A stretch of DNA of 64,000 bases, from IMG/VR virus record IMGVR_UViG_3300008448_011250, positions 22,600-86,599 of that record, one strand, 5' to 3'. A program made the translations under genes and the position numbers. Positions within the stretch are counted from its first letter, which is position 1, and each line of letters begins with the position of its first letter. The notes under the pieces are model-generated. The model saw nothing but the letters and a program-made list of their open reading frames with translations. It was not told where the DNA came from and did not search any database. This DNA is from a virus. Positions 22,088 to 61,072 of the stretch are shown in pieces.

Positions 22088-22418
22088 TGTAGTAGTAACA
22101 TTTAGCATCGAAGGATTTCATAATTGGCCTGATGCTAAAGATGTTTTTCCAGAAGTAGCATTCTTATCAGATAGACATCGTCATATGTTTGGATTTCGTT
22201 GTTATGCACACGTAACACACACTGATAGAGATGAAGAATTTATTCTAATGCAACGAAGATTGAAACAACAGTTGCGAACTAACTTCGGTGGTAACATATT
22301 AGAGTTTGGTTCAATGTCGTGTGAGATGATTGGAGAATGGATATTAGAAAACAATAAAAATCTTTACAAAGTAGAAGTTTGGGAAGATTGGGAAAATGGT
22401 GCAATCATTGAAAGATAG
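22077..22418 (+). CDS. T-fold (QueD/PTPS-like) small protein
   Basis: A 113-residue protein starting at ATG 22077 (a longer frame from 22056 lies inside the previous gene). The pattern fits a 6-pyruvoyltetrahydropterin-synthase fold: TFSIEGFHNW (His15), DRHRHMFGF (His34, His36), EFILMQRRLKQQL in place of the DF-LK segment, MSCEMIGEWIL and the terminal KVEVWEDWENGA. The three His match the QueD zinc triad spacing (16, 31, 33 in E. coli), but the catalytic Cys is absent. It lies immediately upstream of the glycosyltransferase and dpdA genes. Fold assignment is my inference. Confidence 0.6.
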   Translation: MKYSVVVTFSIEGFHNWPDAKDVFPEVAFLSDRHRHMFGFRCYAHVTHTDRDEEFILMQRRLKQQLRTNFGGNILEFGSMSCEMIGEWILENNKNLYKVEVWEDWENGAIIER

Positions 22419-22419
22419 T

Positions 22420-28472: not shown

Positions 28473-29429
28473 ATGAAATCCGGAAACTATCTTTCACCGA
28501 TATATCGTTTATCTCAACGAGATTCAACGACAGTTCCAAGAAAAATATCTTATTCGCAGTGGTCAATGTATGAACGTTGTCCACTTTCTTGGAAATTAGC
28601 TTACATTGATGGATTAGCTCCATTCACATCTTCAATTGATACATGTTTCGGAACAGCATTTCACGAAACATTTCAATATTTCTTAACGGTTATGTATACC
28701 GAATCAGTTAAGAAAGCAGAAGCAATAAATTTTAGAGACATATTAACGGCAAAGCTCAAAGAAGAATATTCACGATGTGTTGCTGAAAATAATGGTGAAC
28801 ATTTTTCAAATCCATTACAATTAGCAGAATACCTTGAAGATGGCGTTGCAATATTGAATTGGTTTATGAAACGACGCTCACAATACTTTTCATCTAAGAA
28901 TTGGGAATTGGCAGGCATCGAAATGGAATTGTGTGTACAAGCTTCAGACGAAAATCCTTCAGTATATTGGTATGGATTTATGGATGTTGTTATGCGACAT
29001 GTTCCTAGCGGTAAAATATACATATATGACATTAAAACAAGTCGTAATGGTTGGAATCAAAATGCAAAATCAGATTCACTTAAATTAGCTCAGCTTATTA
29101 CATATAAAAATTATTTTGCAAAACAATATGGTATTCCTAAAGAAAACATTGAAGTTGAATTCTTTGTGGTTAAACGCAAAATAATGGAAGAGTCAATGTT
29201 TCCTCAGAAACGCATACAAAACATCAAACCTGCTGCAGGTAGTGTAACACAAAAGCGTGTTCAACGTAGCATTGATTTGTTTATTGAACATTGCTTTGAT
29301 GCAGAAGGCAACAAATTAGCAGATAAAACATATTTAGCAGTAGCCGGCAAAGGTTCTGCAAATTGTAAGTATTGTCCATTTAAAACTGATTACGAACGAT
29401 GTCCGAAAGCGAACAGAATAAAAGAATAA
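28473..29429 (+). CDS. PD-(D/E)XK exonuclease with probable iron-sulfur cluster
   Basis: A 318-residue RecB/Cas4/AddB-type nuclease. Motifs: YSQWSMYERCPLSW (~24-37), FGTAFHETF (His in motif I, ~56-64), WYGFMDVVM (Asp, ~167-175), IYIYDIKTS (the D-x-K core, ~183-191) and QLITYKNYF (Q-x3-Y, ~207-215). One N-terminal Cys (in ERCP) plus CKYC and a later RCP near the C-terminus give the four-cysteine arrangement of iron-staple nucleases. It probably processes DNA ends in recombination or replication. Start placed just after a -10 box. Confidence 0.85.
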   Translation: MKSGNYLSPIYRLSQRDSTTVPRKISYSQWSMYERCPLSWKLAYIDGLAPFTSSIDTCFGTAFHETFQYFLTVMYTESVKKAEAINFRDILTAKLKEEYSRCVAENNGEHFSNPLQLAEYLEDGVAILNWFMKRRSQYFSSKNWELAGIEMELCVQASDENPSVYWYGFMDVVMRHVPSGKIYIYDIKTSRNGWNQNAKSDSLKLAQLITYKNYFAKQYGIPKENIEVEFFVVKRKIMEESMFPQKRIQNIKPAAGSVTQKRVQRSIDLFIEHCFDAEGNKLADKTYLAVAGKGSANCKYCPFKTDYERCPKANRIKE

Positions 29430-30042: not shown

Positions 30043-30044
30043 TA

Positions 30045-30052
30045 TATTTATA
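30045..30052 (+). promoter_or_regulatory. Class II TATTTATW box before the glycan cluster
   Basis: TATTTATA, 21 bases before the ATG at 30074, with AAAGGA (30063-30068) as Shine-Dalgarno. It is the only strong box near the head of the 30-32.8 kb segment. Confidence 0.5.
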
Positions 30053-30073: not shown

Positions 30074-31561
30074 ATGGAATTACCAAAGTTACAAAAGATT
30101 GATCCTAACAAACCTAAGAAAAAGAAAATCTTATTGTTAGCAGATGATTTTCGCTTACCATCAGGTATCGGAACAATCAGTAAAGAAATTATTTTTAATA
30201 CAATTCATCACTATGATTGGGTTCAATTAGGTGCTGCACTAAATCATCCTGATGCTGGTAAAGCATATGATTTGTCCGAAGATGTTCGCAGAGAAACAGG
30301 AGTTGAAGATGCTTCAGTTAAATTAATTCCATATAATGGTTATGGTGATAGAAACATTTTGTTTGCATTGCTAAATCAAGAAAAGCCAGATGCAATCTTT
30401 CACTTTACAGATCCTAGATATTGGACATGGTTGTATGCATTAGAACATGAAATTAAAACTACATATGCAACGCCAATTATTTATTATTCAATTTGGGATG
30501 ATTTACCATATCCAATGTGGAACGCCCCTTTTTATGCAAGTTGCGATTTAATCATAGGCATTAGTAAGCAATCCGATAATATCCATAGAGAAGTGCTTAA
30601 ACAGAACGGATTTAAGGTTGTAGATTATGATGAATCTGATGAACTTTGTGCCGAAGTTAGTTCAGATGAAATCATTACAGGTTTTGTTCCTCACGGATTA
30701 AATCATAATACGTTTAAACCTTTAGACGCCAAAGATCCGGTGTTGGTTGATATGCACAAAAAAATCAAAACGGATAATGGAGTAGATTTTGTAGTATTTT
30801 GGAATAATCGAAATATTCGAAGAAAACAACCAGGAGATGTAATTTTAGCATTCAAAACATTCGTTGATGGATTGCCAGAAGCCAAACGTCAAACAGTTGC
30901 ATTATTAATGCATACTCAGATAGTAGACGATAATGGAACAGATTTACGTGCAGTATGGAAAGCAGTATGTCCTGATTATAAAGTATTATTTTCGGAGGCA
31001 AAACTAAACACGCCGGAATTGAATGCAATGTATAACGTAGCAGATGTTGTAGTTAATATTGGATCAAATGAAGGTTGGGGACTAAGTTCAACTGAGGCAA
31101 TTTTATCCGGAACGCCTATCATTAATAATGTTACTGGTGGATTACAAGATCAATGTGGCTTTGTAGACGAAAATGATGAATGGATACGTTTTAATGGTGA
31201 ATTTGCAACTAATCATGCTGGTAAGTATAAATTACATGGAGTTTGGGCTAAACCAGTATTTCCTAGTAATAGAAGCTTACAAGGATCTCCGCAAACACCT
31301 TATATCTTTGATGATCGTGTTCGATTTGAAGATGTAGCCGATGCAATTGCATATTGGTATGACACACCAGAAACCCTTCGTTCAGAAATGGGACAATCAG
31401 GAAGAGAATGGGCGTTAAAAAATGGATTAACGGCACAACAAATGGGGCAGAAAATGATTTGGATGATTGATTATTTATTTGAATCAAAACAAGTAATTAG
31501 AAAGCGATACACATTAACACCAGTTACAGAAACAAAATACGAAAAAATAGGAATAGTATGA
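30074..31561 (+). CDS. Glycosyltransferase, GT4 type
   Basis: A 495-residue GT-B enzyme, first gene of the glycan cluster. KILLLADDFRLPSGIGTISK (~18-37) is the N-terminal acceptor domain; the second half has SNEGWGLSSTEAILSGTPII (~330-349), the GT4 E-x7-E donor site. It also carries an N-terminal tag MELPKLQK which recurs at the C-terminus of the next protein. It overlaps the following gene by 4 bases. Donor and acceptor sugars cannot be read from the sequence. Confidence 0.85.
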   Translation: MELPKLQKIDPNKPKKKKILLLADDFRLPSGIGTISKEIIFNTIHHYDWVQLGAALNHPDAGKAYDLSEDVRRETGVEDASVKLIPYNGYGDRNILFALLNQEKPDAIFHFTDPRYWTWLYALEHEIKTTYATPIIYYSIWDDLPYPMWNAPFYASCDLIIGISKQSDNIHREVLKQNGFKVVDYDESDELCAEVSSDEIITGFVPHGLNHNTFKPLDAKDPVLVDMHKKIKTDNGVDFVVFWNNRNIRRKQPGDVILAFKTFVDGLPEAKRQTVALLMHTQIVDDNGTDLRAVWKAVCPDYKVLFSEAKLNTPELNAMYNVADVVVNIGSNEGWGLSSTEAILSGTPIINNVTGGLQDQCGFVDENDEWIRFNGEFATNHAGKYKLHGVWAKPVFPSNRSLQGSPQTPYIFDDRVRFEDVADAIAYWYDTPETLRSEMGQSGREWALKNGLTAQQMGQKMIWMIDYLFESKQVIRKRYTLTPVTETKYEKIGIV

Positions 31562-32817
31562 GAACAGCGGTTATATCATCACCAGTAGCAACACAATCAG
31601 GTTACGGACACCACGCACGAGAAGTAATTAAACAATTTATAGATAAACGAGGCGAAGAGTGGGACATTAAATTACTTTCAATGCCATGGGGACATACTCC
31701 ATTTACATATCCTATTCCGTTTGATTGGCAAAGCAGATTTGTTCCGCTTCCATTAACAGCACAGCCAGACATCTGGGTTCAAATTACAGTACCAAATGAA
31801 TTTCAACCTATAGGTAAATACAATATTGGTGTAACAGCAGGAACTGAAGGAGACGTTTGTCCTGCAGAATGGATTGATAAGATCAATCAAATGCAAGTTA
31901 CTATAGTTCCTAGCGAATTTACTAAATCAGTATTCGAAACAACAGCAAAGAATGCTGGAAAGTCGATTACAACTAGTTTACAAGTAGTTCCAGAATATTT
32001 TGATGACAAAATATATGACAATAAAAATGTAACCGTTAAAGTTGCTGGATTAGATGATATTAAAGAATCTGCAGCATTTTTAAGTGTCGGACATTGGTTG
32101 CAAGGTCAATTGGGGGAAGATCGTAAAAACATCGGGGGACTAGTGCATTGTTTCTTCAATACATATAAAAACAAGAAAGATGCTCCTGCGTTGATACTAA
32201 AAACAAGCGGAGCAACATATTCGGTAACAGATCGAAAAGAAATTGAAAATAGAATCAATCAAGTTCGAGATTTATTTCCAAATGTAAAACTTCCTAGTAT
32301 ATACTTATTACATGGTGATTTAACAAATGCAGAAATGAATGCATTATACAATCACACTAAAGTAAAAGCAATGATATCATTTACTAAATCTGAAGGATTC
32401 GGACGACCATTGTTAGAATTTGCTACAACAGGTAAGCCAATCATTGCCCCACATTACTCCGGGCCTGCAGACTTCTTAAAAAAAGATTTTATGTGTGCCC
32501 TGCCAGGAGCATTAACTCCAATTCATCCATCTGCGCAAAATGAATTTTTAATTGCAGACGCAAAATGGTTTACGATAGATTATGGGTATGCTGGGAAAAT
32601 GATGCAAGAAGTATTGAAAAATTATAAAACATTTAAAGATTTAGCAACTCGTCAAAGATACTTTGTAAATACTAATTTTACAGAAACTGCAGTAGCTAAA
32701 CGTTATGATGAAGTATTGCAAATCATTGATGATGGCGTAAATAAAATTCCGAAAGCAGTTGAATTAAAATTACCGCAGTTACAAAAAGTAGAATTACCTA
32801 AGCTTCAAAAGGTTTGA
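31558..32817 (+). CDS. Glycosyltransferase, GT4-like
   Basis: A 419-residue GT-B enzyme. The start RTAVISSPVATQSGYGHHAR (~2-21) is typical of GT4 N-domains and TKSEGFGRPLLEFATTGKPI (~278-297) is the donor-site E-x7-E. Its C-terminus ends in two copies of a short motif, LPQLQKVELPKLQKV, which also opens the preceding GT. The downstream promoter's -35 overlaps its stop. Confidence 0.85.
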   Translation: MRTAVISSPVATQSGYGHHAREVIKQFIDKRGEEWDIKLLSMPWGHTPFTYPIPFDWQSRFVPLPLTAQPDIWVQITVPNEFQPIGKYNIGVTAGTEGDVCPAEWIDKINQMQVTIVPSEFTKSVFETTAKNAGKSITTSLQVVPEYFDDKIYDNKNVTVKVAGLDDIKESAAFLSVGHWLQGQLGEDRKNIGGLVHCFFNTYKNKKDAPALILKTSGATYSVTDRKEIENRINQVRDLFPNVKLPSIYLLHGDLTNAEMNALYNHTKVKAMISFTKSEGFGRPLLEFATTGKPIIAPHYSGPADFLKKDFMCALPGALTPIHPSAQNEFLIADAKWFTIDYGYAGKMMQEVLKNYKTFKDLATRQRYFVNTNFTETAVAKRYDEVLQIIDDGVNKIPKAVELKLPQLQKVELPKLQKV

Positions 32818-32841
32818 TAATAATCTAAATTTTAATATAAT
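32814..32841 (+). promoter_or_regulatory. Class I promoter inside the glycan cluster
   Basis: TTGATA (32814-32819), 16-base spacer, TATAAT (32836-32841), 5 bases before the ATG at 32847; no Shine-Dalgarno. It would allow separate, leaderless expression of the GT2/methyltransferase part. Confidence 0.6.
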
Positions 32842-32846
32842 ATAGT

Positions 32847-33467
32847 ATGACAATAACATATGCTATTACCGTTTGTAATGAATTTATAGAAATTCAACGA
32901 TTACTTGGTTTCTTGTTAAAACATAAACGTATACAAGATAATATTGTAGTTTTATATGATGAAGCAAATGGAGATCTAGAAATTGAAAATTTTTTGCGTT
33001 CGCATTCTGTTAATGCGGAATTTGCTTGGCATAAAGCAAAGTTTCAAGGACATTTTGCAGATTGGAAAAATCATTTAACTAAATTATGTACAGGAGATTA
33101 TATTTTTCAAATTGATGCCGATGAAATGATTGATGAGTATATATGCCGTCTCTTACCACAAGTATTAGAACACAATCAAGTAGATGTAATTCGTGTACCA
33201 AGAATCAATACGGTACAAGGTATGACACAAGATCATATGCAACAATGGGGCTGGAATGTTAATGAACATGGATGGATCAATTTTCCAGATTATCAATGGC
33301 GCGTTTATCGTAACGCACCACACATTAAATGGGAAAACAAAGTTCATGAAGTGTTAACTGGATATGAAACAATATCTCATTTACCAACTGATAAAGAATG
33401 GTGTCTATTGCATCCTAAAACAATTGAACGACAAGTAAAACAGAATTCATATTATGCAAATCTATAG
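32847..33467 (+). CDS. Glycosyltransferase, GT2-like
   Basis: A 206-residue GT-A enzyme. ITYAITVCNEFIEIQRLL (~2-19) is the nucleotide-binding start and FQIDADEMIDEY (~91-102) carries the metal-binding D-x-D. HGWINFPDYQWRVYRN and a late HEVLTGYE segment resemble small GT2 enzymes related to LPS core transferases. Soluble; leaderless start predicted; overlaps the next GT by 14 bases. Confidence 0.8.
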   Translation: MTITYAITVCNEFIEIQRLLGFLLKHKRIQDNIVVLYDEANGDLEIENFLRSHSVNAEFAWHKAKFQGHFADWKNHLTKLCTGDYIFQIDADEMIDEYICRLLPQVLEHNQVDVIRVPRINTVQGMTQDHMQQWGWNVNEHGWINFPDYQWRVYRNAPHIKWENKVHEVLTGYETISHLPTDKEWCLLHPKTIERQVKQNSYYANL

Positions 33468-34311
33468 TCCATTAACATTTTGTATATCTACGTTCAATAA
33501 TTTGCCATATTTGAAGATTGCTATTGATTCTGTTAGAAAAAATAGTTATTACAAATCGGCTCCATTTCTTATTCATGCAGAAAATTGTACAGATGGTACT
33601 AATGAATGGTTACAGGAAAACAAAGACACATACAATTTAACATTACTTATTGAACCTGAGAATGATGATATAAAGGGCATTGGCGGCGGAATGAATATTT
33701 GCGCCGAACATGTTGAAACTGACTATATCATGTTTCTCCATTCTGATTTTTATGTCACAAAAAATTGGGATAAAGCTTTGTTAGATATACATGAAAAATA
33801 TCCTACGGAAAAGTTATGGGTTAATTCACATCGTGTAGAGCCGAATATGTTTAATAATCCAACTAGTAGACCAGGTACAGTAATAGTTCCGCCTACAATG
33901 TTTGGTGCTTACTTTCATGATTTTAATTCTGAGTACTTTGATGCATGGGCTGAAGATTTTATTCGAATAAATAATGAAATTGAAATTCCAAAAGGAGAAG
34001 GAGTCTCTGGATTAGTTAAAAAATCAGTTTGGATCGAAGTTGGAGGCAATGATCCGAGATTTGCTCCTGCAAGTTGGGACGATATGGATTTATTCTTAAG
34101 AATGTTACAACATGGTGTAAGATTCATATTACCAGCTTCATCATTAGTATGGCATTTTGGTGCTAGAGGTAGTCATCGATTAGAAGAAAATAATGGACAA
34201 AGTTCCGAAAGGCAACGCATTGCAGAACATGAAAATGCACACAAATGGTTACAAAAATGGGGAGCGATGCCAGCGTTTGATGAGTATGGAATGATAAAAG
34301 GAATACAATGA
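33454..34311 (+). CDS. Glycosyltransferase, GT2
   Basis: A 285-residue GT-A enzyme: FCISTFNNLPYLKIAIDSV (~8-26), ENCTDGTNEWL, FLHSDFYVTKNWD (acidic D-x-D-like motif, ~93-105) and the acceptor-site ASWDDMDLFLRM (~207-218). Soluble, no membrane helix. Overlapping starts and stops tie it to its neighbours. Confidence 0.85.
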   Translation: MQIYSPLTFCISTFNNLPYLKIAIDSVRKNSYYKSAPFLIHAENCTDGTNEWLQENKDTYNLTLLIEPENDDIKGIGGGMNICAEHVETDYIMFLHSDFYVTKNWDKALLDIHEKYPTEKLWVNSHRVEPNMFNNPTSRPGTVIVPPTMFGAYFHDFNSEYFDAWAEDFIRINNEIEIPKGEGVSGLVKKSVWIEVGGNDPRFAPASWDDMDLFLRMLQHGVRFILPASSLVWHFGARGSHRLEENNGQSSERQRIAEHENAHKWLQKWGAMPAFDEYGMIKGIQ

Positions 34312-34994
34312 AAAATATACCTATAGTAATTTTAAACAGAGATCGTTTATATCCTTTAATTGATCAAGTTAATGTTTTAAAGAAAAAAGGATATCATAAT
34401 ATAACTATCATCGATAATCAATCAACATATCAACCTTTATTGGATTGGTATAAAGAAACCGGAATTGATGTTTTTTATAATGATGTGACTGAAAATTCGT
34501 GCCATGCTTTTAGAGATTTAGTAATGATGAATCATCCTAAATTTAAAGCTATTACATCTGATTGGTATGTATTCAATGACAGTGACATTATCCCTTTAGA
34601 TACAGTTCCAGATAATTTTATTGAAGATTTAATTGATTATGCAATTCGACACAACAAAACGAAAGTTGGAATGTCAATTAAAATTGATGACATAGATCTG
34701 TCATATCCATTGAATGCTTGGGTACATAGTTACGAATCAACTTATTGGACTAATGCAATTGTAGATGAAGATGTTGAATTATATCCACATCCAATTGATA
34801 CAACATTTGCAGTACATGCCCCGCATATCATTCCAACTTGGAGTAATGATACATTGCGAGCTGGCGAACCGTATATTGTTAAACATGCTCCATTCTATTA
34901 TGATCCAAACAATTTACCAGAAGATGAAAAGTATTATCTGATGCATATGAATAAACAAAGTAGTAATTGGTCAAGTAAAGTAGAAGTAAAATGA
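34308..34994 (+). CDS. Probable glycosyltransferase, GT-A fold
   Basis: A 228-residue protein: IPIVILNRDRLYPLIDQV (~4-21), TIIDNQSTYQPLLDWY and VFNDSDIIPLD (~88-98, D-x-D). It resembles short GT2-like enzymes that act on sugars. Coupled by ATGA overlaps on both sides. Confidence 0.7.
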   Translation: MKNIPIVILNRDRLYPLIDQVNVLKKKGYHNITIIDNQSTYQPLLDWYKETGIDVFYNDVTENSCHAFRDLVMMNHPKFKAITSDWYVFNDSDIIPLDTVPDNFIEDLIDYAIRHNKTKVGMSIKIDDIDLSYPLNAWVHSYESTYWTNAIVDEDVELYPHPIDTTFAVHAPHIIPTWSNDTLRAGEPYIVKHAPFYYDPNNLPEDEKYYLMHMNKQSSNWSSKVEVK

Positions 34995-35656
34995 TTCCAA
35001 TACATAAATTTGGTGTTGATTTTGTTATCACACCTTCCACTCCAGCATTAGATGATTTTTGGCAAAATGCATATCAAAACAATTGGGAAAATGAAACGTT
35101 TAATGATATATTACCAGCTCTAGATAAAAATAAAACATTTATTGATATAGGTGCATGGCAAGGTCCAATATCATTGGTAGCACAACAATATTCAAAACAA
35201 TGTTTATGTTTCGAACCCGATCCAGATGCATATAAGTATTTAGCAAAAAACATACAAGCAAATAACTTTAAAAACATACTGCATGAAAATGTAGCTGTGT
35301 CAGCAGAAGCAGTATTAAATCTAGGCGCCGATGAATTAGGCGGCGGTGTAACTAGTTTTACTAAATCTAATAATAGTATACAATGTCCTACAATATCAAT
35401 ACAACAGATATTTGAAAAATATAAATTAACACAGGATGATGTATCTGTAATTAAAATTGATGTTGAAGGTTATGAATGTGAACTATTGAAAGATCCTTTT
35501 TGGAAAACTTTAAATGTAAATTTACATATAAGTTTACATGGTTTATTTTTTCAAGACAAACAAAAATATTTTAATGATTTACGAGAATTCTTTGGAAGTG
35601 ATTATCAATTTTTAGAACATGCAGATACACAAGAAATCTTTATAAGGAAACGATGA
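34991..35656 (+). CDS. FkbM-family methyltransferase
   Basis: A 221-residue SAM-dependent methyltransferase. FIDIGAWQGPISLVAQQY (~50-67) is the SAM-binding glycine loop, CFEPDPDAYKYLAKNI (~75-90) the second motif and VIKIDVEGYECELL (~155-168) the FkbM signature. These O-methylate sugars or other small hydroxyl acceptors; here probably a glycan residue. ATGA overlaps on both sides. Confidence 0.85.
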   Translation: MIPIHKFGVDFVITPSTPALDDFWQNAYQNNWENETFNDILPALDKNKTFIDIGAWQGPISLVAQQYSKQCLCFEPDPDAYKYLAKNIQANNFKNILHENVAVSAEAVLNLGADELGGGVTSFTKSNNSIQCPTISIQQIFEKYKLTQDDVSVIKIDVEGYECELLKDPFWKTLNVNLHISLHGLFFQDKQKYFNDLREFFGSDYQFLEHADTQEIFIRKR

Positions 35657-36291
35657 AAACAATAGCACTATTTGGAGCAAGTGGAGGCTTAGGAAGCCAA
35701 TTATTGCCAGTATTACAAAAAAAGTACAACGTTATTGCAATTAGTTCAGCTGACGTTAATGTAACTAATTATGATGCAGTTAAAACATTATTTGATACAC
35801 ACAAAATTGACATTGTTATCAATTTAAGTGGTTATAATTCAGATGCATTTGCTCATAAAATTAATAACGAGCAATTGGATAAACAAATTGATATCAACAT
35901 AAAAGGAACTGTAAATATAGTTTCAAATTGTTTGCCATTTATGCGAGAACAACAATTTGGTCGTATTATTTTAGTTTCATCAGTTTTAGCAGATCATCCC
36001 GTTGTTAGTACTAGTATATATTCTGGCTGTAAAGGTTTTGTGGATAGTTTTACTAAAACAGTAGCATTAGAAAATGCAAATAAAAACATCAATTGTAATA
36101 GTTTGCAATTAGGATATTTCGACGGAGGTTTAACATATAAAATACCAGAAACCTTTAGAGATACAATTAAAAATAATATACCAGCAAAACGTTGGGGTAT
36201 GATTTCTGAATTATATAATACAATTGATTATTTAATCGAAACAGGTTATATCACGGGACAAAATATTAATATCAGCGGAGGAATCATATAA
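35653..36291 (+). CDS. Short-chain dehydrogenase/reductase
   Basis: A 212-residue SDR. IALFGASGGLGSQLL (~4-18) is the NAD(P) site, VINLSGYN the NNAG-like turn, IILVSSVLA (~107-115) the Ser strand and YSGCKGFVDSF (~124-134) the catalytic Y-x3-K. Likely oxidises or reduces a sugar or sugar-nucleotide. Shares its stop/start with the acyltransferase gene. Confidence 0.88.
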   Translation: MKTIALFGASGGLGSQLLPVLQKKYNVIAISSADVNVTNYDAVKTLFDTHKIDIVINLSGYNSDAFAHKINNEQLDKQIDINIKGTVNIVSNCLPFMREQQFGRIILVSSVLADHPVVSTSIYSGCKGFVDSFTKTVALENANKNINCNSLQLGYFDGGLTYKIPETFRDTIKNNIPAKRWGMISELYNTIDYLIETGYITGQNINISGGII

Positions 36292-37142
36292 TGGAAGTAT
36301 ATCAAGATTTTGCTAACAATGTACATATAACAGCTAAAGAAATAAATATCGGAAGCAATGTTCGTTTTGGTAAGGATATCAAAATAAATGTACGAGGAAC
36401 ATTTGAAGTTGGTAATAATAGTATCATAGGCGATCGTTTTACTGCAAATGCCGAAGAACTTATTATTGGAGAATATTTTTATAATGGGCCAACTGATTCT
36501 AGGGGTATGGTAATAGGCGGCGGAGGAGCTAACTTTCCATATGCAAAATTAAAAATAGGCGATCGGGTTGTTTGTCATACAGGACATATAAATCTTGCAA
36601 GTCCAGTTACAATTGGAAATGATGTAGGTTTATCTCATGACGTCGATTTGATTACGCACGGATTTTGGTATTCTATTTTAGAAGGATATCCTAGAGTATT
36701 TAAAGACATCAATATTGGAAATAATGTTATTGTAGGGTGGAAAACAGTTATTATGAGTGGCGTTACAATAGCCGATAATACAGTAATTGGTTCGAATTCA
36801 ACCGTAACAAAATCTTTGTTAGAATCTAAAGCCATTTACGCCGGCTCTCCTGCTAAGTTAATTAAACATATCACTGAACCTACGTTGCAAGAAAAACATC
36901 AAATGCTTGAATCTTTGATTGCAGATTTTAAAGATTTAATGTCATATTACGATGTGCCAGAATTTACCATTAATGCACAATATCCATATTTATATATAAA
37001 TCAACTAAAGGTTAATGTTGATGATTTTAGTTATGAAGGCGAACATGATGCAATAACAGATGCATTCAGAGATTTTGCTAGAAGATATGGAATACGAATT
37101 TATGTTCCACATGGTTTTAAATTTAATTTAACACGTAAATGA
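36291..37142 (+). CDS. Hexapeptide-repeat acyltransferase
   Basis: A 283-residue left-handed beta-helix protein with isoleucine/valine hexads (INIGSNVRFGKDIKI, VTIGNDVGLSHDVDLITH, INIGNNVIVGWKTVIMSGV), the fold of sugar O- or N-acyltransferases. The His in LITHG is a candidate catalytic base, and YAGSPAKLIKHI (~187-198) closes the helix. A ~80-residue C-terminal extension is unusual. Next to a PIG-L deacetylase, so an amino sugar could be unmasked and then re-acylated. Confidence 0.82.
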   Translation: MEVYQDFANNVHITAKEINIGSNVRFGKDIKINVRGTFEVGNNSIIGDRFTANAEELIIGEYFYNGPTDSRGMVIGGGGANFPYAKLKIGDRVVCHTGHINLASPVTIGNDVGLSHDVDLITHGFWYSILEGYPRVFKDINIGNNVIVGWKTVIMSGVTIADNTVIGSNSTVTKSLLESKAIYAGSPAKLIKHITEPTLQEKHQMLESLIADFKDLMSYYDVPEFTINAQYPYLYINQLKVNVDDFSYEGEHDAITDAFRDFARRYGIRIYVPHGFKFNLTRK

Positions 37143-37771
37143 AATTTTTAAATTTTAATAGAGTATTATGTTTAAGTCCACATCCGGATGATACTGAATA
37201 TAGTATGGCGGGAGTTGTTTTAAAACATCAAGATACGCGCTTTGACATATTATGTATGACACAAGGAGGAGATTGCGATTTAACATCAGGAACAGGTCGT
37301 ATTCAAGAAGTACGTAATGCATGGTCTGCATCTAAAGCAAAAAATTATACATTGTTTTTCAGTGATGTTAAATATCTTAAAGAACGTGCAACTGACGAAT
37401 GGATAAATTACATAGAAACCAATTTCACTAAAAACTTCGAATATGATTGTATTATGACTACTTCACAATGTGACAGTCATTTTGAACATGTTATAGTTTC
37501 TTCATTAGCAGCACCATTGGCACGAGTTAAACCATACAGTATCATTCAATATAAGTCGCCATCGACACTAGATAAATGGACTCCAAATTTATTTGTTTCT
37601 TTGGGAGATTTTTATTATATTAAGAAAAAGATGCTACAAGAGTTTAAGTCACAAACACATCATGAGTATTTTGGAGATTTTGTACTCGATGGTTTTCATA
37701 GTAATTTTCAATGTATGAAAAAAGGACAAGGATTTGTAGAATCATATAAAATAGTTACCATATATGAATAA
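37139..37771 (+). CDS. PIG-L/LmbE-family deacetylase
   Basis: A 210-residue zinc-dependent N-deacetylase. The signature CLSPHPDDTEYSMAG (~11-25) supplies His-Pro-Asp-Asp, and a later His (QCDSHFEHVIVSSL, ~111-124) completes the zinc site. The family removes acetyl groups from GlcNAc-type sugars. Its place between an acyltransferase and a glycosyltransferase suggests amino-sugar editing in the glycan. Overlaps both neighbours. Confidence 0.87.
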   Translation: MKFLNFNRVLCLSPHPDDTEYSMAGVVLKHQDTRFDILCMTQGGDCDLTSGTGRIQEVRNAWSASKAKNYTLFFSDVKYLKERATDEWINYIETNFTKNFEYDCIMTTSQCDSHFEHVIVSSLAAPLARVKPYSIIQYKSPSTLDKWTPNLFVSLGDFYYIKKKMLQEFKSQTHHEYFGDFVLDGFHSNFQCMKKGQGFVESYKIVTIYE

Positions 37772-38543
37772 AATAGTATTGTATTGTAAATCATATGATA
37801 AAGATGTTCATCGTGCAAAAACGCTTTTGAATAGCATCATTCAATACAATACGGATAACATTCCTTTTTATATTTCCGTTCCAGAAAAAGATATTGAACT
37901 ATTTAAAACTGTTTTAGGAACTGAAAATTACGTATTGATAACAGATGAATCAATTGATGCTGATAATGAAGGATGGAAAGGTCAACAAATCGTAAAGAGT
38001 CAATTTTGGAAATTAGGCCTTTGTGAAAATTATGTATGTGTTGATTCTGATTGTTTTTTTATCAAGCCCTTTAGCATTAAAGATTTCATGTTTAATGATG
38101 AAACGCCATATACCATATGTCATGAATATAAATCATTCTTTGAATTTTTAGATAAGCATCCATTAGGTTTTGATCCATATGAATCATTTCTTAAAGAACG
38201 TTTGCATATCATGGAATTATTTGGTAGGGAAGGAGTTGTATATGATTTTGGCCCAGGTCCAACTATATGGTCTTCAACGGTATGGCAAAGTTTGGAAGAA
38301 AATTATATTCAACCAAACGGACTTAAGTTTAGCGATCTAATACAAGCAAATGGATCTGAATTTACATGGTATGGTGAATGGTTATTACGTAGCCAGGTAA
38401 TTAGATTAATACCGAAAGGTCCACTATTTAAAAACTATCATTATCCAAATCAATTTGAATATGACAAACATTATGGGTATGATCTAGAAAGAATATCAAA
38501 ACTATACTTAGGAATAGGTATGCAATCAATTTATGAATTTTAA
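37764..38543 (+). CDS. Probable glycosyltransferase, DUF6492-like
   Basis: A 259-residue GT-A-like enzyme: KIVLYCKSYDKDVHRAKTLL (~3-22), a VCVDSDCFFIKPF metal-binding D-x-D motif (~90-102), and an ITDESID/GWKGQQIVK acceptor region, similar to the DUF6492 glycosyltransferase family. Overlaps the next gene by 11 bases. Confidence 0.7.
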   Translation: MNKIVLYCKSYDKDVHRAKTLLNSIIQYNTDNIPFYISVPEKDIELFKTVLGTENYVLITDESIDADNEGWKGQQIVKSQFWKLGLCENYVCVDSDCFFIKPFSIKDFMFNDETPYTICHEYKSFFEFLDKHPLGFDPYESFLKERLHIMELFGREGVVYDFGPGPTIWSSTVWQSLEENYIQPNGLKFSDLIQANGSEFTWYGEWLLRSQVIRLIPKGPLFKNYHYPNQFEYDKHYGYDLERISKLYLGIGMQSIYEF

Positions 38544-39174
38544 TGAAAAGTATAATATGAAAAAAAGTTTAGAAGAAATTAGTAAAAATTATCGTTCAGA
38601 CAAAGGATCTGTATATCATAACTATCTAGAAATTTATGAAAAATATTTTTCTAAATATCAAAATAAATTGAAAACTTTCTTAGAAATTGGATTATGGGAA
38701 GGCGAAAGTATTCGAATGTGGAGAGAGTATTTTACAACAGGTAATTTAGTCGGTGCAGATATTTTAGATTTATCTCATATAAAATTACCAAATACTAGTT
38801 TTCATGTTTGCGATCAGTCTGACAGACAACAATTGGAAGAACTAGTTCAAAAAACATACAACCAGTTTGATATTATAATCGACGATGGAGGACATATGAT
38901 GCATCAACAACAAATTACACTAGGAACAATGTTTAAATATTTGAAACCAGGCGGCGTTTTTGTTATTGAAGATTTACACACATCAGGAAACCCAGCATAT
39001 ACACGCCCGGGCGACACAGATACGTTAGAAATGTTGCATCATTATAATAATACAAAACAATTTGTAAGTAATTGTATGTTACCGGAAGAAATACGTTATC
39101 TAAATGAAAATATCAAAGAATTAAATATTGAATCAGGAAACGTTTCGCCAATTGCCTTTATTATTAAAAAATGA
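38533..39174 (+). CDS. SAM-dependent methyltransferase (MycE/CmcI-like)
   Basis: A 213-residue class I methyltransferase. KNYRSDKGSVYHNYLEIYEKY (~18-38, typical opening), FLEIGLWEGESIRMWREYF (~50-68, SAM loop), DIIIDDGGHMMHQQQ (~113-127, metal/acceptor acidic pair) and LKPGGVFVIEDLH. This pattern is that of macrocin/mycinamicin-type sugar O-methyltransferases. ATG 38533 or the later ATG 38557 may be used. Confidence 0.82.
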   Translation: MNFNEKYNMKKSLEEISKNYRSDKGSVYHNYLEIYEKYFSKYQNKLKTFLEIGLWEGESIRMWREYFTTGNLVGADILDLSHIKLPNTSFHVCDQSDRQQLEELVQKTYNQFDIIIDDGGHMMHQQQITLGTMFKYLKPGGVFVIEDLHTSGNPAYTRPGDTDTLEMLHHYNNTKQFVSNCMLPEEIRYLNENIKELNIESGNVSPIAFIIKK

Positions 39175-40016
39175 AAAGTTGTATAATCTTTGCATGTACA
39201 ATCATTTCAGAATCTAGATTAATAGTTTTACATAGATTTTTAGAAACATTTAAACTACATTTTTCTGATTGTGATATTTTTATTGGAATCAATCCAAATA
39301 GTTTACAACATGTTGAGGAAATTATCGATTCATATGATTTAAATGTATTATCAATGCAACGATGTTCAGAAGAATTGTATTCATTCAGTGATGCATCTGC
39401 ATACCAAATAGCATTAAAACAATTATATCAATCTAAAAATGAATATGAGAATTATTGGTTTGTTCATACCAAAAGCGGTGTTAATGAACATAGTAACTAT
39501 TTACGAGAATGGTATATTGGTAACTTTTTAGCAAAACGTAATTCAATAGAATCATTTATACAATCTTCACCGGGCGTCGGGTCGTATGGAATGTTAGGAT
39601 TAGAATTTGATAAATCTAGAAACTACTCCGAAACTGATTGTGAAATTGACTTGTTTAAAAACGTAATAACATCGGAATTACCTTGCACTCACGCAAACTT
39701 TTTTTATATACATACGCTTTATGTAATTAATAAAAAACCAATGCAAAATTTTCTAAAATTGATATCAAATACGTGGTTCGATATAAAATTAGATCGTTAT
39801 TATTTCGAAGGAGTGTTTCCATTCATCGTTTCCAGATCTGGATACTTTCCGTATTTAGAAAATCGCTACAGTTGTTCATTTATTGACTTACAACCATATA
39901 TTGAACAATGGATTTCAGAAAATAATTTGGAAATATTCAAAAATTATACTAATATATTTAAAACGGATTTTACATTCGAACAACTTTATCCACCATATGT
40001 TAATAGCAACACTTAA
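39171..40016 (+). CDS. Unknown protein of the glycan cluster, perhaps GT-A fold
   Basis: A 281-residue soluble protein. CIIFACTIISESRLIVLHRFL (~3-23) and FSDCDIFIGINPNS (~30-43) look like a Rossmann/GT-A start, and YWFVHTKSGVNEHSNYL (~95-111) could be an active-site region, but no D-x-D is obvious. It is coupled to both neighbours, so it is presumably another glycan enzyme. Confidence 0.55.
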   Translation: MKSCIIFACTIISESRLIVLHRFLETFKLHFSDCDIFIGINPNSLQHVEEIIDSYDLNVLSMQRCSEELYSFSDASAYQIALKQLYQSKNEYENYWFVHTKSGVNEHSNYLREWYIGNFLAKRNSIESFIQSSPGVGSYGMLGLEFDKSRNYSETDCEIDLFKNVITSELPCTHANFFYIHTLYVINKKPMQNFLKLISNTWFDIKLDRYYFEGVFPFIVSRSGYFPYLENRYSCSFIDLQPYIEQWISENNLEIFKNYTNIFKTDFTFEQLYPPYVNSNT

Positions 40017-40719
40017 TCATAATCTTCCTGATTGGACAGATAATTTAGTTAATCAATTACAACGAGATCCACTATTTGCAGACTGCGAATTGATGGTATT
40101 AGATAACGGCTCATCAGAGCCTTTGGCAAATACAACAACACATCGCTTAGAAGAAAATGTATACTTCGGCGGAGGCTTCAATGTAGTACTTGATTATTTT
40201 TTACAAACAAAACATGAATACTTATATTTTCTAAACAATGATTTAGTATTCCACGGTCCTGCATTTTTAACTACATCATTACGAGAAGCACGAGAATCAG
40301 ATGCAGCAGTATATTCTGCAACTGTTATTAATGCATCAGTAGAACAATGTCATTGGCGACAAATGTGGAATTGGGGAACGGGTTTACGAGAAGTACGTTG
40401 GATAGATTTTCAAGCTCCATTGATACGTAGAGACATTTTAGAACATATACAGCAATTTCCTGCAGAATTGATACATGGGTGGGGTTTAGATTTTTATGCT
40501 GGATGTGTTGCAGAATCATTAGGATTAAAAACCATAGTTTCAGATACCAATACAATTACACATATGAATTCATTGACTTTCAAGGAAAATAAAATTAATA
40601 TAGGAGTATCTGAATTTTGTCAACGGGCAGAACTTGGAATGTACAATTATTTTTCTAATTCTATATATAAAGATTTATACTTTGAATTGAGAAGTTACGG
40701 AGAAAATTACACAATATGA
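39997..40719 (+). CDS. Glycosyltransferase, GT2
   Basis: A 240-residue enzyme starting at ATG 39997; a longer in-frame reading from 39883 would duplicate coding inside the preceding gene. MLIATLNHNLPDWTDNLV (1-18), LMVLDNGSSEPL (~33-44), GGGFNVVLDYFL and FLNNDLVF (~74-81, D-x-D-like NND) are GT2 features; HGWGLDFYAGCVAE (~162-175) matches the acceptor loop. Overlaps upstream gene by 20 bases and the next by 4. Confidence 0.8.
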   Translation: MLIATLNHNLPDWTDNLVNQLQRDPLFADCELMVLDNGSSEPLANTTTHRLEENVYFGGGFNVVLDYFLQTKHEYLYFLNNDLVFHGPAFLTTSLREARESDAAVYSATVINASVEQCHWRQMWNWGTGLREVRWIDFQAPLIRRDILEHIQQFPAELIHGWGLDFYAGCVAESLGLKTIVSDTNTITHMNSLTFKENKINIGVSEFCQRAELGMYNYFSNSIYKDLYFELRSYGENYTI

Positions 40720-41405
40720 TTCAACTAAAAGGAACAAAAATAGTAGAAGTTCCATACTTTGCAGATCAATTAACTGATAATACAAAATCAGTACTAATAA
40801 TTGGAGAATGTCAAGGGGGGCATGAAGGAGTTTCAGAAACTATTCATGAAAAGGGTTTTTTAAACGTAGCTACTACGGATATTATGCCATCACTACCAGA
40901 ATATTGGTTAAGACAAAATACAGAATGGGAACATATACAATGTGACTTTATTGAGTTTGATGAATCAAACAAATATGATTTTGTAATTTCAATATCAGTA
41001 TTTGAACACTTCGGATTTTGGTTTGCTGGTAATCGTATGGCAAACGGATTAGTAGAAGATGATACATGTAGGTGGAATCACGATATATTAGGAATCAATA
41101 AAGCATGTAAACTTCTTAAAGATGCAAATTCAAAACTTATAATTACATTGCCAGCTGGGCCATATATGAATTATGAAGAATCTGGAGAACCATTTTTACG
41201 GTATTATGATTATCGTAGGCAGAATTTAATTAAACAAGAATTGCAAAGAAATGGATATTATGTTTCAAATGAAAAGTTCTTTTATTCCGCAGATTTCAAT
41301 ACATGGGAAGAAATGTCTGCAGAAATAAATGATCCAAAATTTTATTCACATTATAATTTATATACACCTAATGTAATTTGGGGAGTAACAATTCAACAAA
41401 TATGA
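40716..41405 (+). CDS. SAM-dependent methyltransferase
   Basis: A 229-residue class I methyltransferase. VLIIGECQGGHEGVSETI (~27-44) is the SAM loop, FVISISVFEHFGFWF (~89-103) the motif with the VFEH signature and LIITLPAGPY a later strand. It resembles DUF268-type sugar methyltransferases. The partially conserved EHFG region is consistent with a modifying rather than nucleic-acid role. Confidence 0.75.
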   Translation: MIQLKGTKIVEVPYFADQLTDNTKSVLIIGECQGGHEGVSETIHEKGFLNVATTDIMPSLPEYWLRQNTEWEHIQCDFIEFDESNKYDFVISISVFEHFGFWFAGNRMANGLVEDDTCRWNHDILGINKACKLLKDANSKLIITLPAGPYMNYEESGEPFLRYYDYRRQNLIKQELQRNGYYVSNEKFFYSADFNTWEEMSAEINDPKFYSHYNLYTPNVIWGVTIQQI

Positions 41406-42592
41406 TATCACTAATTATACCTAGTTACAATAATTTGCGCCACTTAAAAAATGCGTACGAAAGTATTAAAAAACATGCTCCGACTGCAGAAATAATTTTA
41501 TTAGATGATGGTTCGACTGATGGGACGTGGGATTGGATGAAAGAACGATATGCCGAAGATGAAAATCTAGTTATAATGCGGGTAGAGGAGAGAACGGGTC
41601 ATACTATTTTATATGATCAAGGTATAGAATATGCTACAAACGAAATAGTGGGCATATTACACGCCGATATGATTATTGGCCCAAGTTATATAGAAAACTT
41701 AGTAAAGCACTTACAACCAGGAAAAGTTGTCTGTGCGACCCGTATAGAACCACCTTTACACCCTCCGGGTAAAGAAAAAATCATAATGGATTTTGGACAA
41801 GACTTTGATACATTAAATATTGATGCATTTGAAGAATTTGCAATGCAACAGCAAGAAGAAAATGTAGATCGAGTAACATATGGAATGTTCGCACCATGGA
41901 TTTTATATAAATCAGATTTTCAAGCAATAGGAGGCCATGATCCATTATTTGCTCCATTTCCATATGAAGATTCAGATATATTTCAACGTTGGATATTAGC
42001 CGGATATGAATTAATACAAAGTCGCGATGCATTCGTTTATCATTTAACTTGTAGAGGACATAGATGGACAGAACAGGTTGGACAAGATGATGAATATTAT
42101 AAACAAGCTTGTACAAGAGCTAGTAGAAACTATTTACGTAAATGGGGTAGCTGGATTAAAAACAATGAATATCAGTATCCAATTATAATACCAAAATATA
42201 ATATTGCATTTGTAGTTCATAATTGCACATTACCTATATTAGAAGCATTAGAACCATGGTGCGATAGAATCTACATCGATGATGATATGCAAGTAATTAC
42301 AACTGCGTATATTGAAAAAGAACAACCAAATACTAAGTTTGATTTAACAAAACGCGTTTTGAATTTAGGCTTAAATTATCCAGAAGGAGAAAATGATATA
42401 GTTGTTGTAATACTTGATGCATCACAATTAGGAAATCACAATTTTCAATACATTCAGCAACTTCCAGAAATTATTGCAGATAATGGCGCTATAGGTGAAT
42501 TTAAACTAGATTGCTTTACTGTGATTATCAATCATCTAGAAACATATGAAAAAAATCTCATTAAACTTAACCAACAACATATTTATCTATGA
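41402..42592 (+). CDS. Glycosyltransferase, GT2, with extra C-terminal domain
   Basis: A 396-residue enzyme starting at ATG 41402 (an earlier TTG reading overlaps the methyltransferase). MISLIIPSYNNLRHLKNA (1-18), IILLDDGSTDGTWDWM (~32-47), GILHADMIIG (~86-95; D-x-D reads HAD) and PYEDSDIFQRWILAGYE are GT2 features. The last ~130 residues form a separate alpha/beta domain not usual in GT2 enzymes, function unknown. Last gene of the cluster; it overlaps the holin-like gene by 4 bases. Confidence 0.82.
   Translation: MISLIIPSYNNLRHLKNAYESIKKHAPTAEIILLDDGSTDGTWDWMKERYAEDENLVIMRVEERTGHTILYDQGIEYATNEIVGILHADMIIGPSYIENLVKHLQPGKVVCATRIEPPLHPPGKEKIIMDFGQDFDTLNIDAFEEFAMQQQEENVDRVTYGMFAPWILYKSDFQAIGGHDPLFAPFPYEDSDIFQRWILAGYELIQSRDAFVYHLTCRGHRWTEQVGQDDEYYKQACTRASRNYLRKWGSWIKNNEYQYPIIIPKYNIAFVVHNCTLPILEALEPWCDRIYIDDDMQVITTAYIEKEQPNTKFDLTKRVLNLGLNYPEGENDIVVVILDASQLGNHNFQYIQQLPEIIADNGAIGEFKLDCFTVIINHLETYEKNLIKLNQQHIYL
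42580..42587 (+). promoter_or_regulatory. Weak class II box before the lysis genes
   Basis: TATTTATC inside the last codons of the glycan cluster, one base before the ATG at 42589. The last base departs from the other boxes, so this call is tentative. Confidence 0.3.
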
Positions 42593-42897
42593 AACGAAAA
42601 CGAATGTTATTAAGAATAAGGATTGCAATGCGTCAAACCAAAAGTTTCCTGCAACGTTTATTGTCAGATTCTAGATCTGGCGATGTATCATCAAAGCGCG
42701 TTATCGGCGTTGTAGGATTTGTATCACTCATGGCCATGATGTTTATTAATTCATTGTATCCTAAATCAATAGCACCAGACGAACACCTAGTATCAGCAAT
42801 TGAATATATTGTTATAGCTGCCATGTTTAGCACAACGGCAGACAAGTTTTCGCCAACATCGAAGAAGAAGAATGATGACAATCAACCAGTAGTGTAA
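42589..42897 (+). CDS. Holin-like small membrane protein
   Basis: A 102-residue protein with a basic N-terminus (RKRMLLRIRIAMRQ) and two hydrophobic helices (RVIGVVGFVSLMAMMFI and EYIVIAAMFS), ending in a charged tail. This looks like holin-type proteins of Bacteroidota phages and the next genes are a holin and an amidase, so a role in lysis is likely. Alternatively it is an unrelated membrane protein. Confidence 0.6.
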   Translation: MKRKRMLLRIRIAMRQTKSFLQRLLSDSRSGDVSSKRVIGVVGFVSLMAMMFINSLYPKSIAPDEHLVSAIEYIVIAAMFSTTADKFSPTSKKKNDDNQPVV

Positions 42898-42901
42898 GGA
42901 T

Positions 42902-43327
42902 ATGAAACGGATGAAAACATTTCTATTAGTAAGTAGTACAACGACCCTATCATTTATTTGTACGTATTTTTTAAATTTAACAATGCATAATGCAGATCAA
43001 TATTTGGCTCTAGTTGCAGTAGTAATGTTAGATGGATTTTTTGGAGTAATTGCTGGTATGAAACGAGAAGGTTTCAAAACATATAAAGCTCTTAAAGTAT
43101 TACAAACCCTAGTAATTTGGATCATGTTTTTATCAACATTACTAATAGTAGAACAAGGATATCCGGGAACGAGTTGGTTAAGTGAAACTATATTATTTCC
43201 TTTCTTATTCTTTCAAATCATTAGTGCATTGAAAAATGCATCAATGTCAGGATTTATTGAAGCGACATTATTAACAAGCATATTAGATAAAATAGATCTT
43301 CATAAAGGAGACCGTAAAAAGGATTAA
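42902..43327 (+). CDS. Phage holin, holin-4-like
   Basis: A 141-residue protein with about four membrane helices, including FLLVSSTTTLSFICTYF, YLALVAVVMLDGFFGVIAG, VLQTLVIWIMFLSTLLIV and ILFPFLFFQIISALKN. The DGFFGVIAG-KREGFKTYKALK segment resembles the PF05105-type (toxin secretion/phage lysis) holin family. It should form the membrane lesion that releases the endolysin. Starts 4 bases after the previous stop and ends 2 bases before the amidase gene. Confidence 0.8.
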   Translation: MKRMKTFLLVSSTTTLSFICTYFLNLTMHNADQYLALVAVVMLDGFFGVIAGMKREGFKTYKALKVLQTLVIWIMFLSTLLIVEQGYPGTSWLSETILFPFLFFQIISALKNASMSGFIEATLLTSILDKIDLHKGDRKKD

Positions 43328-43329
43328 CA

Positions 43330-44007
43330 ATGAGTTTAGATGTTACAAAAATCAAACAAGTTCCATTGCGAGAGTCGCAATATGTAAAAGAAGAAATCAA
43401 AAAAACACAAATCGTATTGCATCACACAGCCGGCAATTCATCTGGCGTAGGCACAATTAAAATGTGGGATACGGATGATAGAGGACGCATTGCAACCTGC
43501 GTAACTATATCAGGCAAAGGTGCATCAAAAGATACATATGATGGAGAAATTTGCCAAGCATTTTCATCTCGCTTTTGGGCATATCATTTAGGTGTTAAAG
43601 GAGATGTATTTCGTGCAAATGGTCTTCCTGTTAAAAGCTTAGATAAATTATCAATTGGCATTGAAATTTGTAGTTGGGGGCCATTAGAGAAAAAAGGTGA
43701 CAAGTTTTATAACTATGTTGATAGAGAAGTTCCTGCAGATCAAGTTACTGAATTAGAAACTCCATATAAAGGATATAAGTATTATCATCGATACACTGAT
43801 GCACAAATTGAATCTACTAAAAATCTTTTATTGTATTGGCGCGATACATACGGAATTAATTTGACATACAACGAAAAGGATATGTGGTCAGTTTCTAAAC
43901 GAGCACTTAGCGGCGATAATGGCGTATATACTCACAATTCTTATCGTAAAGACAAAACAGATATTCACCCATGCCCTAGAATGATTGCAATGTTAAAATC
44001 TTTGTAA
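43330..44007 (+). CDS. Endolysin: N-acetylmuramoyl-L-alanine amidase
   Basis: A 225-residue Amidase_2-type zinc enzyme that cuts the bond between muramic acid and the peptide stem. IVLHHTAGNS (~26-35) gives the first zinc His; FWAYHLGVKG and LSIGIEICSWG follow in the expected order, and the C-terminal DIHPCPRMI (~211-219) gives the remaining His/Cys ligands. No signal peptide, so it needs the holin encoded just upstream. Confidence 0.92.
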   Translation: MSLDVTKIKQVPLRESQYVKEEIKKTQIVLHHTAGNSSGVGTIKMWDTDDRGRIATCVTISGKGASKDTYDGEICQAFSSRFWAYHLGVKGDVFRANGLPVKSLDKLSIGIEICSWGPLEKKGDKFYNYVDREVPADQVTELETPYKGYKYYHRYTDAQIESTKNLLLYWRDTYGINLTYNEKDMWSVSKRALSGDNGVYTHNSYRKDKTDIHPCPRMIAMLKSL

Positions 44008-44023
44008 TTATGTCAAGTATCTA

Positions 44024-44031
44024 TATTTATA
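44024..44031 (+). promoter_or_regulatory. Class II TATTTATW box, leaderless context
   Basis: TATTTATA, 4 bases before the ATG at 44036, with no room for a Shine-Dalgarno. Implies a leaderless transcript if used. Confidence 0.45.
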
Positions 44032-60814: not shown

Positions 60815-61072
60815 ATGACAGAAAAAGAAATACAATTGTTAGGATTTGAACGAGAAGATTATTCAGATTTTGACGGAGATCATTATTATTATTCATATCA
60901 GGTAGCTCAAGGCTTTGGATTTATTTCATCTGCCAATACCGAAAGCGATGCAGAATGGTTTGTTGACTTTTTTGATTCATATCCAACAATTCGATTTACG
61001 GATTTTGAAGAAGTACAATCATTAATTAAATTAATCGAAAAACGAGTAGTACGCGATGAATCAGCTGGATAG
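60815..61072 (+). CDS. Unknown acidic 85-residue protein
   Basis: A small protein rich in Asp/Glu/Phe/Tyr (REDYSDFDGDHYYYSYQVA, then DAEWFVDFFDSY). Very acidic small phage proteins sometimes mimic DNA or inhibit host enzymes, but nothing specific supports that here. Leaderless start; overlaps the thymidylate synthase gene by 17 bases. Confidence 0.5.
   Translation: MTEKEIQLLGFEREDYSDFDGDHYYYSYQVAQGFGFISSANTESDAEWFVDFFDSYPTIRFTDFEEVQSLIKLIEKRVVRDESAG

Follow-up and report, generated by a model that had tools for sequence, protein, structure and literature searches.

What does a phage build with fifteen glycan genes set end to end, and on what does it build it? The question is raised by a stretch of viral DNA of 64,000 nucleotides (the window), bases 22600-86599 of an IMG/VR virus record (IMGVR_UViG_3300008448_011250) that is itself partial, at 86,599 bases. 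The window encodes PolB, a UvsX-like recombinase, a DnaB-like helicase, the clamp loader gp44, ribonucleotide reductase (RNR), thymidylate synthase and GroEL, and the left part of the record encodes a T4-type major head protein and tail sheath; "T4-like" is a fair label for this phage. Between 30074 and 42592, fifteen open reading frames (ORFs; g1-g15), all on the + strand, form one continuous, tightly packed block with a GC content of 0.29-0.35, near the genome's own value. They comprise up to nine glycosyltransferases, three methyltransferases, a short-chain dehydrogenase/reductase (SDR), an acyltransferase and a de-N-acetylase.

An earlier sequence-only reading had described this fifteen-gene glycan island, with near-universal overlaps of 1-20 bases between neighbours, and had treated it as a single unit. 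The block is as described, and the overlaps recur at every junction except for a 29-base gap before 32847, a pattern that assumes ATG starts at 39997 for g13 and at 41402 for g15. However, the island proved to be two units, a core of three glycosyltransferases and a recombining cassette. Phage glycan clusters are usually classed as sporadic auxiliary genes that alter the host surface. Here the first enzymes behave like core genes of the phage, and mobility is confined to the outer cassette; the glycan is therefore probably the phage's own.

An inherited core and an exchanged cassette

Relatives of the locus were collected in three ways: with the acyltransferase, with the first glycosyltransferase (g1, GT4a), and with the neighbouring PD-(D/E)XK nuclease regardless of GT4a. 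In the nuclease-recruited set, chosen by no glycan gene, GT4a was present in 58 of 58 loci having at least 2.5 kb downstream, at a median of 264 bp from the nuclease. The second glycosyltransferase (g2, GT4b) followed GT4a in all 40 of these loci with more than 5.5 kb downstream, and the third (g3, GT2a) scored next in 38. Thus, the sporadic presence among related phages that characterizes P-SSM2-type clusters was not observed. Distances between GT4a sequences tracked those between nucleases (Mantel r = 0.90), as did those for GT4b (0.84), much like the replication genes gp44 (0.89) and gp62 (0.91), so that both GT4 genes belong to an inherited core. The coefficient was 0.45 for GT2a and 0.02-0.52 for the cassette genes. 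Genes 1-3 are the phage core and genes 4-15 an exchangeable cassette, with GT2a intermediate between the inherited core and the mobile remainder.

At least 594 contigs encode GT4a relatives. Among 50,697 phage records, GT4a matched immuto, Mel-JY01, RM378, an uncultured 484-kb phage and, weakly, S-EIVl; GT4b matched immuto and Mel-JY01, and GT2a only immuto, Mel-JY01 and RM378. The phages that carry the core form a large, tailed, mostly aquatic group. The core is found in phages recorded on Flavobacterium, Microcystis and, distantly, Rhodothermus, which suggests that the acceptor is made by the phage. The predicted structure of GT4a (pLDDT, predicted local distance difference test, 86) is a GT-B fold with 373 PDB matches at E ≤ 0.001, GT4-type GT-B structures among them, and the EX7E-type motif that accompanies this fold in CAZy family GT4 is present as NEGWGLSSTE in GT4a and EGFGRPLLE in GT4b.

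Both GT4 proteins also carry an LPxL(K/R/Q)K motif, at the C-terminus of GT4b (window 32760-32815) and the N-terminus of GT4a (window 30074-30100). Across loci L020-L099, LPxL occurs at the GT4b C-terminus in 67 of 68 relatives, 51 of them with at least two copies; 39 loci have the motif at the N-terminus of GT4a. The motif may dock both enzymes to a shared partner. We rejected the idea of a tether common to structural proteins: apart from incidental single matches LPxLxK is confined to GT4a and GT4b, with none in the structural region of immuto or the left part of the window genome. In most other lineages, though not in the window, GT4b and GT2a are separated by a small cysteine-containing protein of ~150 residues (for example L010:6087-6533, L012:6077-6541, L019:13124-13582, and ~30 other loci), which is possibly a member of the core. 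In Mel-JY01 (L101, 9320-13901), an S-adenosylmethionine (SAM) synthase gene and an IMP dehydrogenase-like gene adjoin the island, and the annotation splits GT4a into two ORFs, possibly owing to a break or a sequencing error.

The border between the two units was located by comparison with record G011 (L020, L107), whose DNA is 90.9% identical to the window from the nuclease to 33454, where g3 meets g4. Beyond this point the DNA is wholly different, over 9.5 kb in the window and 12.0 kb in G011, and similarity resumes at 42911, in the holin gene, at 91.5% identity. Similarity of L108 and L021 to the window likewise ends near 33454. Seven other loci (L010, L011, L012, L014, L016, L017 and L100) have the same cassette at 65-78% mean identity, with the nuclease and GT4 genes at 39-47%; replication genes are 41-47% identical between the window phage and the divergent phages that share its cassette. 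In eight divergent loci cassette identity (54-78%) exceeded core identity (43-46%, p=0.008), although, these loci having been recruited by a cassette gene, the high cassette identity is partly selected, while the low core identity is unaffected. The cassette is exchanged as a block between phages. Chance gene order, or a local assembly artefact, was rejected because the fifteen-gene order recurs in several independent contigs.

Cassettes unlike that of the window are diverse: 197 proteins of at least 170 residues fell into 141 clusters at 40% identity. The 25 commonest Pfam families among 110 sister-cassette proteins included epimerases, GDP-mannose-dehydratase-like and CapD-like proteins, DegT aminotransferases, many methyltransferases, GT2, GT10 and GT11. 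The sequence-only reading had remarked on the lack of nucleotide-sugar synthesis genes. This is true of the window, where Pfam found no PfkB sugar kinase or nucleotidyltransferase among the fifteen genes, but not of the sister cassettes, in many of which such genes occur; the lack is a property of the window's cassette, not of the system. Variable, recombining central genes between conserved flanks are also a trait of Wzx/Wzy loci, and by analogy the locus appears to share the architecture of bacterial capsule and serotype loci. A borrowed host O-antigen locus was considered and set aside, since scanning genome_contigs with the profile of a single gene, g8, revealed no bacterial source; the one relative found was in a phage-like contig of a metagenome-assembled genome. 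A larger island of ~22 kb occurs in record G002 (L109/L110), where relatives of GT2d, GT2c and GT2b are shifted beside GT4b and an ORF of 752 residues lies near the far end.

Wzx/Wzy loci also encode a multi-pass flippase and polymerase and an initiating sugar-phosphate transferase, and here the window and its relatives differ. In a hydrophobicity count of 416 ORFs located after GT2a (396 distinct, 88 loci), 414 had no hydrophobic segment, two had one and none had three or more; none of the fifteen genes of the window had any. The controls, the holin and an ABC-transporter-like protein, scored two and three segments, respectively. With no multi-pass membrane protein among ~400 cassette proteins, there is no flippase or polymerase, as the sequence-only reading had said of the window, and no initiating transferase. 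The pathway looks soluble.

Candidate acceptors of the glycan

We propose that the enzymes would act in the host cytoplasm on host nucleotide sugars, with some sister cassettes supplying their own. GT4a and GT4b would put the first sugars directly on a phage virion protein, GT2a would extend the chain, and the cassette enzymes would extend and cap the outer sugars (O-methyl, N-acyl), g7-g9 editing an amino sugar and the methyltransferases adding caps. New particles would then carry a conserved inner glycan and a strain-specific outer part that recombination could switch in one step. We give an even chance to this soluble pathway with conserved inner and hypervariable outer sugars, the virion acceptor of which we infer. 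That the whole is a phage serotype locus, in which universal machinery makes an inner glycan on a virion protein and outer-glycan cassettes are swapped as blocks across 41-47% replication-gene identity, is tentative, the balance lying slightly against it. The acceptors rank as virion protein (evenly poised), host surface (unlikely), DNA (a shade less likely still) and other (very improbable), and sequence alone cannot separate the first three. The interpretation in the sequence-only reading is thus supported in part: for a glycan set without lipid-linked export, a phage component is still a better explanation than a complete O-antigen locus.

Chloroviruses use enzymes of their own to glycosylate the capsid protein, producing glycans with a conserved core and variable outer sugars (PMC7826918). 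The island resembles the PBCV-1 type in its virus-encoded, largely soluble enzymes, conserved core, variable outer sugars and O-methylation (PMC7826918, PMC9614988). Soluble cytosolic viral glycosyltransferases, with a conserved core and variable decoration, are what virion glycosylation would be expected to involve, and they are what we found. The best PDB match of GT4a is chlorovirus NY-2A B736L (3oy2), both by sequence profile (E 5e-14) and by fold (E 1.3e-17, template modelling score 0.76 on the target), and the nearest PDB sequence to GT4b is likewise B736L (E 1e-4). The best viral model match to GT4a is a 484-residue protein, the length of RM378 gp13, and is presumably that protein (unconfirmed). 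However, chloroviruses are eukaryotic viruses with dispersed genes and N-linked glycans, and GT4a and B736L are ~18% identical over the aligned fold; the likeness is one of design and fold, not proof of an acceptor.

Among phages, Flavobacterium phage vB_FspM_immuto (NC_055915, gp181-gp169) has its locus at the same site after the PD-(D/E)XK nuclease, with identities to the window of 48% (GT4a), 46% (GT4b), 52% (GT2a) and 48-49% (the terminal GT2, gp169). The interior differs, containing two DegT-type aminotransferases, a methyltransferase, an epimerase and a pilin-glycosylation-like protein. The region is annotated, and our literature search found no published description of it as a locus. 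Being cultured, immuto makes the virion reading directly testable. Mycobacteriophages, according to work cited in PMC12619734, encode glycosyltransferases that decorate subunits of the capsid and tail tube with glycans; we liken this to the island by description. The same holds for the moraphages, a large aquatic lineage with mostly Bacteroidota as predicted hosts, which has four glycosyltransferase orthologue groups in its core; the parts of that account available to us describe no cassette architecture (PMC12619734). Phage glycan clusters are thus already known (PMC7824862, PMC7029224, PMC12619734), but in a literature search that did not reach most subscription journals we found none described with a recombining cassette behind a universal GT4-GT4-GT2 core. 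If the virion reading is true, virion glycosylation would be common to all of a widespread phage group, phages would possess a recombining surface-antigen locus parallel to bacterial capsule switching, and the known families of glycosyltransferases and sugar-modifying enzymes would grow by about a hundred.

Several points weigh against a virion acceptor. The core lies in the replication module, away from the structural genes, and the window phage and several relatives carry genes for 7-deazaguanine DNA modification. B736L binds GDP-mannose, its acceptor is unproven, and NY-2A capsid glycans lack mannose, the sugar that it prefers (PMC9614988). The GT4a of RM378, a distant relative, is just 28% identical, most of the loci compared are contig fragments, and the hydrophobicity count is a rough measure. 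Neither an acceptor protein nor a site of linkage can be named, and virion carbohydrate in this phage group is so far predicted from genes alone.

The enzymes could instead remodel the host surface during infection, acting on host lipid-linked intermediates or the lipopolysaccharide (LPS) core, using the host's flippase and ligase, and so blocking superinfection or preventing adsorption of progeny to debris. This has been the published reading for P-SSM2-type clusters (PMC7824862) and pelagimyophage glycosyltransferases (PMC7029224); the GT2, FkbM, SDR, PIG-L and nucleotide-sugar enzymes of the cassettes resemble those of O-antigen loci, and cassette variability is equally compatible with surface variation. 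We nevertheless consider it unlikely, because the core is not sporadic but universal and vertically inherited, is common to phages of hosts from different phyla, and is accompanied by ~400 cassette ORFs with no membrane, initiating, flippase or polymerase protein. Likely co-expression with lysis genes would also leave little time for remodelling. The published clusters themselves resemble the island only in part. The cyanophage P-SSM2-type "LPS" clusters have ~15 glycosyltransferase and sugar-modifier genes that are polymorphic between related phages, as here, but they contain sugar kinases and nucleotidyltransferases and are described as sporadic (PMC7824862); GT4a, GT4b and GT2a matched no P-SSM2 record in the phage collection. 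Pelagimyophage host-recognition clusters likewise hold many glycosyltransferases in a plastic region, there of marine T4-like phages, but they lie with tail-fibre genes, are dominated by GT8 and also occur as scattered groups of two or three (PMC7029224), whereas the window's island lacks tail fibres and keeps a fixed GT4-GT4-GT2 core.

In a third explanation, GT4a and GT4b would glycosylate a modified base in the phage DNA (7-deazaguanine or 5-hydroxymethylpyrimidine), the cassette would extend the sugar, and restriction would be blocked. The window phage has FolE, QueD-like and QueE genes and, at 23441-24700, an ORF with TGT-like motifs, related among others to a Vibrio phage protein that is annotated as TGT; Pfam, NCBIfam and PDB sequence searches did not confirm the ORF as TGT/DpdA. 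In immuto a DpdA is annotated, along with QueC/D/E/F and FolE, and the island adjoins a nuclease within the replication module. Yet the deazaguanine genes and DpdA do not occur wherever the core does. Of seven large records, all carry GT4a and four carry FolE. GT4a and GT4b are both present in the complete genomes of Mel-JY01 and RM378 and in the 164-kb G002, where no DpdA of either type, TGT, QueC, FolE or thymidylate-synthase-family gene was detected, and the core therefore does not depend on these base modifications. Immuto, G001 and G003, considered as further relatives without DNA modification, were discarded because they have another DpdA type. The window's thymidylate synthase keeps the Asn of LPFNIASY and is therefore of the dUMP type, not a dCMP hydroxymethylase; hydroxymethylpyrimidine synthesis, a trait of T4-type glucosylation, was not found in this partial record, and a Tet/JBP search, run without a positive control, gave no match. 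A glycosylated base is accordingly an improbable product of the island, though it may occur in those phages that have deazaguanine genes.

Two observations concern these DNA-modification genes. At 22396-24700, between PolB and the clamp loader, a further GT4 gene overlaps the TGT/DpdA-like gene by 14 bases, which suggests that a sugar is placed on 7-deazaguanine of the phage DNA separately from the island. In relatives, the glycosyltransferase beside the TGT/DpdA-like gene is of two types (80-88% or 40-49%, versus ~23% identity), paired with different DpdA-like versions. The thymidylate synthase (61056-62183) has an insertion of ~100 residues, and its catalytic residues look intact.

The remaining explanation, and a very improbable one, is a product that is secreted or otherwise released (a small glycoside, a secondary metabolite, or a host protein glycosylated in takeover): sets of glycosyltransferase, methyltransferase and SDR genes do occur in secondary-metabolite loci, and a second cyanophage cluster has been interpreted as such a locus (PMC7824862), but Pfam revealed no PKS, NRPS, terpene scaffold enzyme or transporter among the families seen, and a universal two-GT4 core would be unusual for metabolite decoration.

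Island genes and their expression

Table 1. Features of the glycan island and its flanks (window coordinates)
Feature	Coordinates	Strand	Evidence
PD-(D/E)XK nuclease, locus anchor, conserved neighbour on the left	28473..29429	+	PF12705 9e-21
Promoter-like box TATATTTATA	30043..30052	+	29 bases before GT4a
g1 GT4a, core glycosyltransferase, GT-B fold	30074..31561	+	Glycos_transf_1 3.5e-5; predicted structure
g2 GT4b, core glycosyltransferase, conserved C-terminal LPxLxK repeats	31558..32817	+	Pfam 4.1e-5
g3 GT2a, core glycosyltransferase; 3' end is left cassette breakpoint	32847..33467	+	DADE motif
Exchangeable cassette, g4-g15 and small ORF 42589-42897	33455..42910	+	No similarity to L107
g4 GT2 glycosyltransferase, first cassette gene	33454..34311	+	PF00535 1.1e-12
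g5 probable GT-A glycosyltransferase	34308..34994	+	FNDSD motif alone
g6 FkbM-type SAM methyltransferase	34991..35656	+	PF05050 4.7e-13
g7 SDR	35653..36291	+	PF13561 6.3e-28; YxxxK present
g8 hexapeptide acyltransferase, conserved C-terminal extension	36291..37142	+	PF00132 1.4e-7
g9 PIG-L type de-N-acetylase	37139..37771	+	PF02585 1.1e-9; HPDD, HxxH motifs
g10 DUF6492 glycosyltransferase-like	37764..38543	+	PF20102 3.7e-11
g11 SAM methyltransferase	38533..39174	+	PF13847 1.2e-6, PF13578 6.7e-6
g12, no sequence family, weakly GT-A-like model	39171..40016	+	Predicted structure
g13 GT2-like glycosyltransferase	39997..40719	+	PF00535 0.004, PF05212 3.7e-4
g14 putative SAM methyltransferase	40716..41405	+	IGECQGG motif alone
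g15 GT2 glycosyltransferase, conserved C-terminal domain, last of fifteen	41402..42592	+	PF00535 3.5e-23
Holin-like protein, right cassette anchor in this lineage	42902..43327	+	Two hydrophobic segments; 58% to immuto ORF annotated holin
Amidase endolysin, downstream of island, before next box	43330..44007	+	phrog_1794 3.3e-7

The enzyme assignments of the sequence-only reading stood for most genes (Table 1). Pfam scores were above the curated cut-off for g4 and g15 (GT2), g6 (FkbM), g7 (SDR), g8 (Hexapep), g9 (PIG-L), g10 (DUF6492) and g11 (methyltransferase), and below it for GT4a, for which the predicted structure supplied the assignment, and for GT4b, g3 (0.0015) and g13. No Pfam match was obtained for g5, g12 or g14, nor an NCBIfam match for g14; g5 and g14 are assigned from a motif, and the g12 model (pLDDT 77.5) is weakly GT-A-like, its best PDB match being TarS (E 1.4e-3, with none better than 1e-3). 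For g13, the ATG start was preferred to a longer ORF beginning with TTG at 39883. Catalytic motifs of the PIG-L, SDR, glycosyltransferase and methyltransferase proteins were intact wherever they could be checked. The genes g7, g8 and g9 are kept together and their pairwise distances correlate across loci, which fits joint action on one sugar and, we infer, the amino-sugar editing by PIG-L and acyltransferase that had been suggested.

Late expression of the island had been proposed from a class II box just upstream. The sequence TATAAATA shows no overall enrichment (11 seen, 12.7 expected), and was rejected as a T4 late promoter here. On the + strand, seven of nine copies of TATTTATA lie in intergenic gaps, which make up 1.9% of bases (p=3.1e-11). 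The box (A)TATTTATA is the reverse complement of the T4 late box and precedes many genes (window 7645, 12792, 30045, 44024, 45819, 54084 and 58945; L002 2057, 3029 and 15940). Because TATTTATA boxes stand not only before the tail sheath gene but also before those for RNR and GroEL, the box alone is no proof of late expression. No such box was found from g1 through the holin and amidase genes, the next being at 44024, past the amidase. Judged from this spacing, island and lysis genes are probably transcribed together as one unit, an arrangement suggestive of late use.

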